From the NCBI RefSeq assembly GCF_001687605.2, contig NZ_CP016539.2, positions 588,501 to 652,500 of the forward strand: 64,000 bases of DNA, written 5' to 3'. The stretch's first letter is position 1, and each line of letters opens with the position of its first letter. Positions 3,023-51,136 of the stretch are shown one piece after another. Made by a program: the position numbers and the translations under genes. The stretch is from Planococcus plakortidis (GTDB lineage Bacteria; Bacillota; Bacilli; Bacillales_A; Planococcaceae). Under the pieces are notes generated by a model, which was given only the letters and a program-made list of their open reading frames with translations, ran no database searches and had not been told where the DNA came from.

Positions 3023-6000
3023 ACATTTAATTGAACAGCAACTCGAAAAACGCATCTTGATCATTGACGGCGCGATGGGAACGATGATCCAAAACGCGGA
3101 TCTGTCCGCAGAAGATTTCGGTGGTGAGGAATACGACGGCTGCAATGAATATTTGAATATTGTCCGTCCCGACGTGCTTGAAGGAGTACACGACGCTTAT
3201 TTGGAAGCGGGTGCTGATATCATCTGTACGAACACATTCGGCGGCACGCCAGTCGTCCTCGATGAGTACGGGCTCGGGCATCGTGCAGCGGAAATCAATC
3301 AAAAAGCGGTCGAAATCGCCAAAAAGAGCCAAGCGAAATATTCGACGCCAGAATGGCCGCGCTTTGTTGCGGGTGCACTCGGGCCGACGACGAAAACTTT
3401 GTCGGTAACAGGCGGTATCACGTTTGATGAATTAAAGCAGGATTTCCAAGTACAGGCGAAAGCCTTGATCGAAGGGGGAGCGGATCTATTACTCCTTGAG
3501 ACGAGCCAGGATATGCTCAATGTCAAAGCGGCGACGATTGCCATTCGCGATGCTTTTGAAGAAACTGGTGTGGAATTGCCGGTGATGATTTCAGGGACGA
3601 TCGAGCCGATGGGCACGACGCTTGCCGGGCAGACGATTGAAGCGTTCTATGTATCGATCGAACACATCAAGCCGCTTTCAGTCGGCTTGAACTGCGCGAC
3701 AGGGCCGGAATTCATGACCGACCATTTGCGTTCATTGTCTGAATTATCTTCAGGTTACGTCAGCTGCTACCCGAACGCCGGGCTGCCGGACGAAGAAGGG
3801 CATTACCACGAAACGCCGGAATCCTTGTCGAAAAAACTGCGCGGCTTTGCTGAAAAAGGCTGGCTCAATGTCGTCGGCGGCTGTTGCGGCACGACGCCTG
3901 CACATATCAAAGCGGTGCGTGAAGCGGTCGACGGGCTGGCCCCGCGCGAACGCAATGAAACAAGCCATGGCCATGCAGTATCCGGTATCGAAGTACTCGA
4001 ATACGACGAGTCGATGCGCCCGCTATTTGTCGGCGAACGCACGAATGTCATCGGTTCGCGCAAATTCAAGCGGCTCATTATCGAAGGGAAGTTCGAGGAA
4101 GCGGCAGAAATCGCCCGTGCCCAAGTGAAGAACGGGGCGCACGTCATCGATATTTGCCTGGCGAACCCGGACCGCGATGAACTGGAGGACATGGCGGCAT
4201 TCATGCAGGAAGTCGTCAAAAAAGTGAAAGTGCCGCTCGTCATCGACTCCACGGACGAAGACGTCATCGAAGCGTCGCTGAAATTCTCGCAAGGCAAGGC
4301 GATCATCAACTCGATCAATCTGGAAGACGGCGAAGAACGCTTTGATGCGGTCATGCCGCTCGTGAAAAAATATGGCGCTTCGGTCGTTGTCGGCACGATT
4401 GACGAAATCGGCATGGCCGTGACGCGTGAGCGCAAACTCGAAATTGCGGAACGTTCGTACGGATTGCTGACCGAAAAATGGGGAATCGCCCCGGAAGACA
4501 TCATTTTCGATCCGCTCGTGTTCCCGGTCGGAACGGGCGATGAGCAATACATCGGCTCGGCGGTGGAAACGGTTGAAGGCATCCGCCTCATCAAGGAAAA
4601 GCTGCCGCGCGCCTTGACGATCCTCGGCGTGTCGAACGTGTCGTTCGGTTTGCCGCCGGTCGGCCGTGAAGTGCTCAATGCCGTTTATCTTTACCATTGC
4701 ACACAAGCCGGGCTTGATTACGCAATCGTCAACACCGAGAAGCTTGAGCGCTTTGCGTCGATTCCGAAAGAAGAAGTGAAGATGGCGGAAGAATTGTTGT
4801 TCGAGACGACCGATAAAAACTTGGCGGACTTCACGGATTTCTACCGCGATAAGAAAAAGGAAAAAACCGAAGACGATATTCCGGATACCGTGCCGGAGCG
4901 CCTCGCGTACTATATTCTTGAAGGCACGAAAGAAGGACTCATCCCGGATCTTGAAAAAGCGCGGGAGATGTACGAAGACCCGCTTGAGATCATCAACGGC
5001 CCGCTTATGGAAGGCATGGCGGAAGTCGGCCGCTTGTTCAACGACAACCAGCTGATCGTCGCGGAAGTGCTGCAATCAGCAGGCGTCATGAAAGCGGCAG
5101 TCTCTTATCTTGAAGGCTTCATGGAGAAAAAAGAAGACGATAGCGGAAAAGGCAAGGTTGTACTCGCGACCGTCAAAGGAGACGTCCACGACATCGGCAA
5201 AAACTTGGTCGATATCATCCTGTCGAATAACGGATTCAAGGTTATCGACATCGGCATCAAAGTGACGCCGGCGGAACTGATCGAAGTGATCCGCAAAGAA
5301 CAGCCGGACATCGTCGGCTTGTCGGGGCTGCTCGTCAAATCCGCCAAGCAGATGGTGCTGACGGCGCAGGATTTCCGCGAAGCGGATATCGACGTGCCGA
5401 TCCTGGTCGGTGGAGCGGCCTTATCCCGACGCTTCACCGAAACGAAGATCGCCGCGGAATACGACGGCCCGGTCATTTATGCAAAAGACGCCATGCAGGG
5501 GCTGGACCTCGCGAACCGACTGCAAAGCGGCACCGGTAAAGCGGAATTGCTCGATGAACTCGGCGCCAAGCAGGAAAAGCGCCAGGCACAGGAAGCCGCG
5601 CGTGCTGAAAAAGGAGCCGTTGCTGTTGCCGAAAAACCGGTCAAGACCGTGCGCGAAGATGCGCCAGTTTACGTGCCGAACGATTTGCGCAGGCATGTCT
5701 CGAAAGAGTATTCAGTGGCGCACCTGTATCCATACGTTAATATGCGCACCTTGATCGGCCATCATTTGGGGCTGCGGGGGTATAGCGATAAACTCTTGCA
5801 GCAAGGCGACGCGCGGGCAGTGGAATTGCATGAACTCGCAACGAAGTTTCTCCAGTCCGGGTTCTTGAAGCCGGCGGGGATGTATCAATTCTTCCCGGCG
5901 CAATCGGACGGTGACGACGTCATCATCTACGATCCGAAAGATGCCAAGACAGAAATCGAGCGCTTCACCTTCCCGCGCCAACAAAAAGCGCCGTTCTTGT

Positions 6001-38009: not shown

Positions 38010-38243
38010 GATAGCGAGGGTTTGGGTGTGGAAGTGTTTTTGGATTCTATTAATGCTTCAGCAATATAGCCGCTGCCTTGCTTTGGGTTGAGCTCCCGCC
38101 GTAAGTCAAGAAGAACACTTGTCTTACGGCTTCGCTTCACCCTGGAGGCTTGGCAGCTGAGAGATTTCATTGCATCTAGATTGTTTAAATGGATTTGCTT
38201 CTGTAATCAGTTGCCGTCTAGCGGGGGAATCGCTTCCCCGGGT
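38010..38243 (+). repeat. tandem structured element, copy 1
   Basis: First of three units of about 235 bases (unit-to-unit spacing 248 and 246). It has an inner stem GCCGTAAG (38098-38105) / CTTACGGC (38123-38130) with a 17-base loop, an outer stem CTGCC/GGCAG, and ends in GGGGGAATCGCTTCCCC. No gene fits it. Confidence 0.85.
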
Positions 38244-38257
38244 GATAGTTAAAGTAA

Positions 38258-38491
38258 GATAGCGAGGGTTTGCTTGTGGAAACGTTTCGGTTTTCTGGTT
38301 GAGCATCGTCTTGGCAGTCGCCGCCATGCTTTGGGATGGCCTCTTGCAATAAGCCAAGAAAAGCACTTGTCTTATTGCGTCGGCTCACCCTTGACGCTTG
38401 GCGGCTTGGAGATTTCGTTACATGTTGCTTGTTTAAAGTGATCTGCTTCTATACCTAGTTGCCGGCTAGTGGGGGAATCGCTTCCCAGAGT
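38258..38491 (+). repeat. tandem structured element, copy 2 (divergent)
   Basis: The same layout as copy 1 but more diverged. The inner stem is GCAATAAG (38346-38353) / CTTATTGC (38371-38378), again with a 17-base loop, and the outer stem is CCGCC/GGCGG. Changes on one side of each stem are matched on the other. Confidence 0.85.
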
Positions 38492-38503
38492 AAGCTTGAA
38501 GCA

Positions 38504-38735
38504 GATAGTGAGAGTTTGTCTGTCAAACTGCTTTGGTATTCGATTCGAGTATCATGTGGGTAGCCGCTGCCGTGCTTTGGGTTGAGCTCCCGCCGTAAGC
38601 CAAGAAGAACACTTGTCTTACGGCTTCGCTTCACCCTGGACGCTCGGCAGCTGAGAGATTTCATTGCATCTAGATTGTTTAAATGGATTTGTTTCTGTAA
38701 TCAGTTGCCGGCTAGCGGGGGAATCGCTTCCTGAA
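38504..38735 (+). repeat. tandem structured element, copy 3
   Basis: Nearly identical to copy 1 over its central 150 bases. The inner stem is GCCGTAAG (38592-38599) / CTTACGGC (38617-38624), with a 17-base loop. It ends in GGGGGAATCGCTTCC. Confidence 0.85.
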
Positions 38736-38885
38736 ATGAGGCATCCATCTAACGGGAATTGAATCAGAAACTTTGTTGATCATAGGGATGAGCGAGAGTT
38801 CATTTTCTGTTCTATATGAAACGATGTACAAAGTATAGTGCATTTCCAGATGTAGCTTAGATAGAATGAAGAAATATTTTTCCGC

Positions 38886-39044
38886 TCTAAAGGCGGAGGC
38901 GAAGCGAAAGGTGGGGACGCCTGAAGGATCAGCGGGTTTGAGAGACCCCGCAGGAGTGCGTACTTTGCACGACGAGGAGGCTCGATTCCCGCCCTTAGGC
39001 AAGCATCCACCTGCAGCGCAGCCTCAAACACTAAACGATTTCCA
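38886..39044 (+). repeat. Bacillales-type extragenic repeat, copy 2
   Basis: AGGCGGAGGCGAAGCGAAAG, GTGGGGACGCCTGAAGGATC, GAGACCCCGCAGGAGTGCG and CGACGAGGAGGCTC, ending with AGGCAAGCATCCACCTGCAG. A longer version of the GC-rich extragenic element. With the three tandem units it fills the 1.1-kb gene-free stretch between the catabolic operon and the symporter gene. Confidence 0.72.
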
Positions 39045-39081
39045 TATGTAAAGTGGCGATCCATAATCATATCTCCACAGA

Positions 39082-39118
39082 GAAAGCCTCCCGGTATCGC
39101 CGGGAGGCTTTCTTCTAT
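39082..39118 (-). terminator. terminator of the symporter gene
   Basis: GAAAGCCTCCCGG pairs with CCGGGAGGCTTTC around a five-base loop, just past the stop of the minus-strand gene. Confidence 0.88.
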
Positions 39119-39119
39119 T

Positions 39120-40388
39120 TTATGCTTCTTGCGTGTCGATCGTTGTTTCTTCTGTCAAGCCGTGCTTTTTCTCGGTTTCTGCGACCATCAATGCACAAGC
39201 CGCATCGCCGGAAATATTGATTGCGGTGCGGGACATGTCAAGCAGGCGGTCGATCCCGAGCACAAGCCCGATGCCTTCAACCGGAAGGCCGACACTCGAC
39301 AGGACCATCGCGAGCATGATCAGCCCGACACCAGGAACGCCGGCTGTCCCGATACTCGCAAGCACAGCCGTCAAGACGACCGTCAGCAATTGGCCGAAAG
39401 TCAGGTCGACCATGAAGGCCTGGGCGATGAACATCGTCGCAGCCCCTTGCATGATCGCCGTGCCGTCCATATTGATCGTTGCGCCGAGCGGTTGGACGAA
39501 GGAACTGACCGACTTCGGAATCTTCAAGTCACGTTGCGCCACTTCCATCGATACCGGAAGCGTGCCCGTGCTGCTCGATGTACTGAAAGCGACCGTCATG
39601 GCCGGCATAAAGGTCTTGAAGAACCAGACCGGGCTCTTTTTCGCCATCAGCCACACGGTGCCGCCATAGGTCAAGATGGCGTGGATCAAAAGCGCGCCGA
39701 TGACGACGAGCATATAGGAACCCATCGCCTGGATCGCCGCGAGGCCTTGCGAACCGATCGCCGTGGCAATCAAGCCGAATGTGCCGTACGGGGCAAAACG
39801 CATGACGATGCCGACAAGGTACATCATGATTTCATTGCCCTGTTCGACGAGATTCAAGATGCCTTTCGTCTTGTCGCCAAGCGCGGTAAGCGCCAGGCCG
39901 ACAAAGACCGCGAAGACGATGATCTGGAGCATATTGCCTTCGGTCATCGCTTCAAGCGGGTTTTTCGGGATGATGTTGAGCAAGGTGTCGGCGATCGACG
40001 GGGCATCGTCCGGGCTGTAAGTCGCCGCGTCGATATCGAAATCACCTGCAGCACCTGGCTGGACGAGTGCAGATAAGCCGAGCCCGATGGTGATGGCGAT
40101 GGTCGTCGTCACGAGGAAATACGAAATCGTCTTGATGCCGATGCGGCCCAGTTTCGCCGGATCGCCAAGCCCTGCAGTTCCGAGGACAATCGACAAGAAC
40201 ACGAGCGGCACGACGAGCATGCTGATAAGGGCAAGGAAAATCTGCCCGACCGGCACGAAAACGTAAGGATTGAGTATTTCGAAAACTTCAGGCGCAAAAA
40301 GATTTAACAGCAAACCTGTGATCGCACCTAAGATCAAGGCACTGATGACTTTAAACGTTAAGCCTTTCTTTTTCTTCAATTCATCCAC
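39120..40388 (-). CDS. dicarboxylate/amino acid:cation symporter (GltP/DctA family)
   Basis: 422 residues, eight membrane helices plus two re-entrant loops. The family signatures are clear: AFSTSSSTGTLPVSM (serine-rich re-entrant loop), NMDGTAIMQGAATMF in helix 7, and VPGVGLIMLAMVLSSVGLPVEGIGLVLGIDRLLDMSRTAINISGD (in pieces) near the end. It imports glutamate, aspartate or C4-dicarboxylates with Na+ or H+. The start is GTG 40388 (or the adjacent TTG 40391) behind GAAGAAAG. Confidence 0.93.
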   Translation of the reverse strand: MDELKKKKGLTFKVISALILGAITGLLLNLFAPEVFEILNPYVFVPVGQIFLALISMLVVPLVFLSIVLGTAGLGDPAKLGRIGIKTISYFLVTTTIAITIGLGLSALVQPGAAGDFDIDAATYSPDDAPSIADTLLNIIPKNPLEAMTEGNMLQIIVFAVFVGLALTALGDKTKGILNLVEQGNEIMMYLVGIVMRFAPYGTFGLIATAIGSQGLAAIQAMGSYMLVVIGALLIHAILTYGGTVWLMAKKSPVWFFKTFMPAMTVAFSTSSSTGTLPVSMEVAQRDLKIPKSVSSFVQPLGATINMDGTAIMQGAATMFIAQAFMVDLTFGQLLTVVLTAVLASIGTAGVPGVGLIMLAMVLSSVGLPVEGIGLVLGIDRLLDMSRTAINISGDAACALMVAETEKKHGLTEETTIDTQEA

Positions 40389-40558
40389 CAACTTTCTTCA
40401 TTTAAGGAAACGCATAAAAACAAGTGTAACCGAAGCGGAACAAAAGCAACAGTTTCAACAGACCTCTCTGCTTGGAAAGGGATTCCCTAAAAAAATGCAA
40501 CTATTCTTATAGATCTGTCGTCTATCATGATAGAATTACGGCGAAAAGAGGTAAAAAT

Positions 40559-42370: not shown

Positions 42371-42490
42371 TTCGTTTTTCGACTGCGTTCCAGGGGGCTG
42401 CTTGGGGCTCGCAGGATGCGAGTCATGCAGCTGATGCGACAGGACGTCGCGTTTTCAGCTGCCCGGGGATGGGGCGGGTGCCCGGCCAAC
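42371..42490 (+). repeat. interspersed repeat, copy B
   Basis: Matches 32219-32331 in the opposite orientation (GCGTTCCAGGGGGCTGCTT, GTCATGCAGCTGATGCGACA, TTTCAGCTGCCCGGG). It continues into a GC-rich tail (to about 42560) with no counterpart at the first site. The stretch 42281-42699 has no gene I can support. Confidence 0.75.
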
Positions 42491-50869: not shown

Positions 50870-50922
50870 AAAAATCCTGATTACAGAAAACGAAAAGATC
50901 GCTTTCTGTAATCAGGATTTTT
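50870..50922. terminator. long isolated hairpin
   Basis: A 20-base perfect stem (50870-50889 against 50903-50922, AAAAATCCTGATTACAGAAA) around a 13-base loop, with A-run before and T-run after. It looks like a terminator, but no gene ends nearby on either strand. Confidence 0.75.
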
Positions 50923-51136
50923 CGGTTCCTGGTAGAGACCCTTAAGCCGTATCCTTAAGGTTATACAGATAGATTATGGGGGTTATTCACTTTGAACAGC
51001 TTACTACATAGACAGGTTTTATGCAAGAGAATATACAATAGACGTCCGACCTCTTGGGAAACCGAAACTTTTTCAAGGACTGGCCGTATACTTCATTACA
51101 ATGGAAAACACAGCAAAATAAGAAAGGGTGGAGACG

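Follow-up and report, generated by a model that had tools for sequence, protein, structure and literature searches.

A family of composite intergenic repeats with a conserved hairpin in Planococcus

Beyond the 3' end of a dicarboxylate symporter gene of Planococcus plakortidis lie three similar units arranged head to tail. They were found in a stretch of 64,000 nucleotides, which is called the window here. The stems of these units change on both sides between copies, and the original prediction proposed a structured RNA at 38010-38735 of a kind that was not recognized. Are the units an RNA of this one locus, the remains of a duplication, or members of a larger family?

The tandem arrangement was confirmed. 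The units start at about 38010, 38258 and 38504, with periods of 248 and 246 bp, and units 1 and 3 are 75-76% identical to the middle unit (ungapped copies of 229 nt). The inner stem encloses a loop of 17 nt in all three units, as predicted, and this loop contains a CAAG/CTTG sub-stem with a 7-nt loop of its own. The co-changes described for the inner stem are present at 38098-38130, 38346-38378 and 38592-38624, as are those of the outer stem (CTGCC/GGCAG in units 1 and 3, CCGCC/GGCGG in unit 2). The predicted extent holds for the tandem units but not for the element: the array belongs, as one module, to a composite some 1 kb long, which reaches to about 39025, just short of the terminator of the symporter gene. 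The features are as follows; for the units, the linker and the GC-rich domain the strand given is the probable folding strand.

38010-38257, minus strand: unit 1, with the hairpin core at about 38069-38157 and the inner stem at 38098-38105/38123-38130
38258-38503, minus strand: unit 2, with the hairpin core at about 38318-38406 and the inner stem at 38346-38353/38371-38378
38504-38735, minus strand: unit 3, with the hairpin core at about 38563-38652 and the inner stem at 38592-38599/38617-38624
38736-38883, minus strand: linker module joining the array to the GC-rich domain, its spacing conserved in other copies
38884-39025, minus strand: GC-rich imperfect stem domain, the type of which varies among sister species at the same locus
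39080-39114: intrinsic terminator of the dicarboxylate symporter gene, a hairpin with a T-rich tail, found by a scan on the plus strand and by a script on the strand of the gene
39120-40391, minus strand: dicarboxylate symporter gene; the composite sits just beyond its terminator

Small conserved open reading frames were rejected on inspection. The minus-strand frames of units 1 and 3 start at an ATG that reads ACG in unit 2, as it does in many other copies, and the frame listed for unit 2 has no sequence in common with the other two.

Selection on the hairpin and the folding strand

Compared with dinucleotide shuffles, the fold of unit 3 reaches a z-score of -2.7 for the minus strand and of -3.5 for the plus strand, which, coming from one sequence, is only moderate evidence when taken alone. 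Covariation was assessed in 338 non-redundant units with an APC-corrected G-test of all of the approximately 20,000 column pairs. The null was a set of 60 alignments simulated on the tree, in which the number of changes in each column was preserved; the procedure is a home-made analogue of R-scape and is distinct from R-scape itself. The column pairs 90-100, 81-109 and 73-116 rank first to third (E <= 0.05). All three are proposed stem pairs, and stem pairs make up 9 of the 14 top-scoring column pairs. Parsimony gives 139 changes from one base pair to another.

A set of 55 diverse hairpins leads to the same result. Under the named structure 96.5% of their cells pair, and pairing falls to 34-49% when the partner is slid by 1-3 columns. 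Both sides have changed in 12 of the 19 pairs, and double-change cells number 123 versus 29 in shuffles. Between orthologous units of two sister species identity is 92% in the stems and 82% in the remaining sequence, with 18 double changes, some of which may stem from conversion between copies. The tree-based test and the diverse set give good support to the original proposal that selection on base pairing maintains the hairpin, and the units show the statistically supported covariation by which structured RNAs are recognized.

If the units were merely the debris of neutral tandem duplication, they would share an ancestry and their pairing would be unconstrained. Unit copies do recombine, so that apparent co-changes can be inherited together; however, in the test against the tree-based null as well as in the independent distant set the covariation is concentrated in the stem, and the double changes between orthologous units also argue against this account. 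It is largely refuted and we regard it as highly improbable.

A folding RNA tolerates G-U pairs, and these appear as A-C on the opposite strand. On the plus strand, departures from Watson-Crick pairing reconstructed by parsimony lead to A-C in 146 cases versus 52 to G-T, and the same kinds of change number 1669 and 1206, respectively, in unpaired columns. The independent distant set contains 19 A-C cells versus 5 G-T cells. Judged by the excess of A-C over G-T in these two sequence sets, the folding strand is probably the minus strand of the window. The prediction had read the stems on the other strand, opposite to the one that tolerates G-U pairs. A single-stranded DNA intermediate would be expected to leave the same A-C mark.

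A dispersed family of composite elements

A search with the unit found 48 places in the window's own genome. The model of the hairpin core matched 47 places there above 60 bits, at about 32 intergenic sites, and a profile run over the fetched loci gave 53 matches, fragments included. The family has about 50 copies in this Planococcus genome, and the window array is one local instance of it. The candidate RNA has therefore been upheld in its pairing constraint and not as an RNA specific to this locus, since the units belong to a dispersed, high-copy repeat family. A mobile-repeat family free of structural constraint had been named beforehand as an outcome that would tell against the candidate; the family proved to be repeat-like, and it is constrained.

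The hairpin core is present in all 46 of the Planococcus genomes searched. Of 215 further genomes of the order, 46 have it too, and these represent four other genera of the family. Two main subfamilies can be told apart: A, with a period of about 246-247 bp, and B, with a period of about 216 bp and a different 3' part. In distant species conservation is limited to the hairpin core; the period of one array there is about 155-167 bp. No match to the family was found in phages. The single plasmid match is NZ_CP025126.1 (L299), which is 7 kb long, was deposited for Planococcus sp. MB-3u-03 as a linear plasmid and contains three matching places; it may be a misfiled chromosomal contig, because its genes are of chromosome type.

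The element that went unrecognized at first is indeed without a matching family in Rfam 15, the covariance models of which gave nothing at the gathering score for the units and no hit better than chance (E about 0.9 or worse). Rfam matches elsewhere in the window are a SAM riboswitch (970-1070) and a purine riboswitch (50889-50988), and a match to Bacillaceae-1 RNA lies separately at 42408-42463.

An arm of 29 nt, located 107-166 bp beyond the last unit, is common to 27 of the 33 arrays (match cut-off 18; the best shuffle scored 17 of 29) and forms the start of the GC-rich imperfect stem domain. On the probable RNA strand a composite consists of the GC-rich stem domain with exchangeable inserts, the linker, and between one and four tandem units, each about 247 or 216 bp long, in this order. 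The inserts of the GC-rich domain are interchangeable, and one of them, present in several composites, is Bacillaceae-1 (RF01690). The hairpin tip is replaced in several copies by a module of about 90 bp, beginning GAATTGGCGAAAGGAAGTTGAGCC, as at 3925-4012 of locus L063. A related form of this module is found inside the GC-rich domains of L041, L042, L045 and L062. Distinct modules, a variable number of tandem units and a dispersed, intergenic distribution are the properties of a BOX-like modular repeat. It is conceivable, if rather doubtful, that structured modules enter the hairpin tips and stem domains of other modules at precise points via an RNA or single-stranded DNA intermediate, in a plug-and-play fashion, in which case long mosaic folded trailers would be built behind terminators across the Planococcaceae.

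Searches for a mobilising transposase of the family, and for inverted repeats of at least 12 nt bounding the array or the composite, found none. Nor was a clean empty site with a target duplication found, the loci devoid of units differing too much to show one. A MITE would carry both terminal inverted repeats and such a duplication. The genome encodes a RAYT-like Y1 transposase (L304; G000:C1:2348288-2348623), and a Y1 match is present in 29 of the 46 Planococcus genomes. This protein was rejected as the mobilising agent, because 12 loci with Y1 genes contained neither a unit nor a module of the family. Some Y1 flanks hold other repeats; the TGTCCCTGTGCACCACACAATT form beside the gene in L306 and L308 is a separate family. 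A group II intron or its derivative was also rejected, with no RVT_1 in the genome and no Rfam group II match in the window, and a reverse transcriptase as the mobilising agent likewise found no support.

Turnover and placement of the elements

Remnants of the composite are kept at the window locus in twelve close relatives. Eleven of them have one to three units, and one (G021) has the linker and the GC-rich domain but no unit. The closest relative (G033) carries two units and a different type of GC-rich domain at this locus, and one of the two matches unit 2 over part of its length only. Most element sites are common to this relative and the window's genome, and unit numbers at other sites are 1, 4 and 2 in the relative versus 4, 2 and 1, respectively. 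Sister species differ in unit number, unit identity, domain type and hairpin tip, while the sites stay. In one genome (G145) homogenisation within the array is suggested, because its units are near-identical, and recombination between units would be the simplest account of the turnover. Short tandem repeats such as TTCCACAAACAAATCGCTT occur downstream of the units in relatives (loci L103-L107), and TTTATCAGCGATT repeats lie behind the same symporter gene in a distant relative (L113).

These data bear on the possibility that the units are multi-copy genes for a regulatory non-coding RNA, each unit being a functional hairpin domain that binds protein or RNA and works in trans, at a dose set by copy number. 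Strong covariation, a conserved loop sequence and old orthologous sites kept between species, with stems better conserved than the rest, would agree with such genes. Variation of copy number and domain content among sister species and the loss or exchange of the hairpin tip in some copies would not, and in the window no sigma-70-type promoter was found between the symporter terminator and the array. We consider this explanation unlikely.

The 33 arrays of the window's genome comprise 12 between convergent genes, 21 between tandem genes, the RNA strand being in sense in 17 of these, and none between divergent genes. The other intergenic gaps, taken from the fetched loci of three genomes, comprise 17 convergent, 156 tandem and 65 divergent ones; genes were called for this purpose by a simple script based on codon statistics. 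In 29 of the 33 arrays the RNA strand runs in the same direction as the gene on its 5' side; distant loci showed no clear rule of gene orientation. A cis-regulatory leader or riboswitch was rejected, since the RNA strand comes after the 3' end of a gene in those 29 arrays and none of the 33 is placed between divergent genes. Terminators were detected at 37 of 44 element-bearing gene ends versus 18 of 44. Their adjacency was dropped as a sign of target choice, because anything downstream of a gene follows its terminator and the association is partly trivial.

Convergent enrichment, absence between divergent genes, the sense orientation to the preceding gene and the more common terminators could also indicate a transcription insulator selected by the host, in which read-through or 3'-to-5' decay between convergent genes would be blocked by the folded trailer of the minus strand. 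However, purifying selection on a parasitic repeat predicts the same placement, and the pneumococcal repeats show it (PMC3049150). Moreover, the structure lacks its own U-tract and the orientation rule is absent in distant relatives, which makes an insulator a quite improbable explanation.

It is reasonably probable that these elements are non-coding interspersed repeats, modular and structured, which form one family and work like the pneumococcal BOX elements. The searches that found no mobilising transposase, terminal inverted repeats or clean empty site count against this reading, as do the lack of a promoter-like site between the symporter terminator and the array and of a clear orientation rule in distant relatives. 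The units of such a family would multiply and shuffle by recombination between copies, and a trans-acting agent would spread the composites. Selection would act on the folded single strand, most likely RNA produced by read-through from the preceding gene, or alternatively a single-stranded DNA intermediate. Behind terminators a long folded 3' trailer would be tolerated, and it may buffer convergent neighbours against read-through. The family is large and absent from Rfam, the selection on its fold is strongly evidenced, and the papers searched contained no description of it or of any such family in the genus. Orthologous sites that differ in units and modules are a natural test bed for the spread, shuffling and fixation of structured repeats behind genes.

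Comparison with known repeats

The bcr1 repeat of the Bacillus cereus group, one of several stem-loop repeat families, is, like the Planococcus family, a dispersed intergenic stem-loop repeat of a group of Bacillales, 147-167 bp in length; compared by description, it differs in that the part of the account describing it mentions no tandem composite (PMC2267715). REP repeats of the REP/RAYT type flank the Y1 transposase gene, whereas the Planococcus units do not (12 loci). Bacillaceae-1 RNA occurs as an insert within the GC-rich domain of several composites and is not matched by the tandem units.

BOX elements are built as boxA-boxB(n)-boxC. Their boxB module is about 45 bp long, and the Planococcus units are several-fold larger, about 247, 216 or 156 bp depending on the subfamily. 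The Planococcus family also differs in its host, the Planococcaceae, and in the exchange of hairpin tips and inner domains for other modules. BOX elements of Streptococcus pneumoniae contain tandem boxB modules in variable number, are enriched between convergent genes, show insertion of repeats into each other and can be co-transcribed as 3' trailers (PMC3049150). The likeness is one of architecture only, and the family is not called a member of BOX: both are composite, intergenic and structured, both are built of tandem modules in variable number, and both are enriched between convergent genes.
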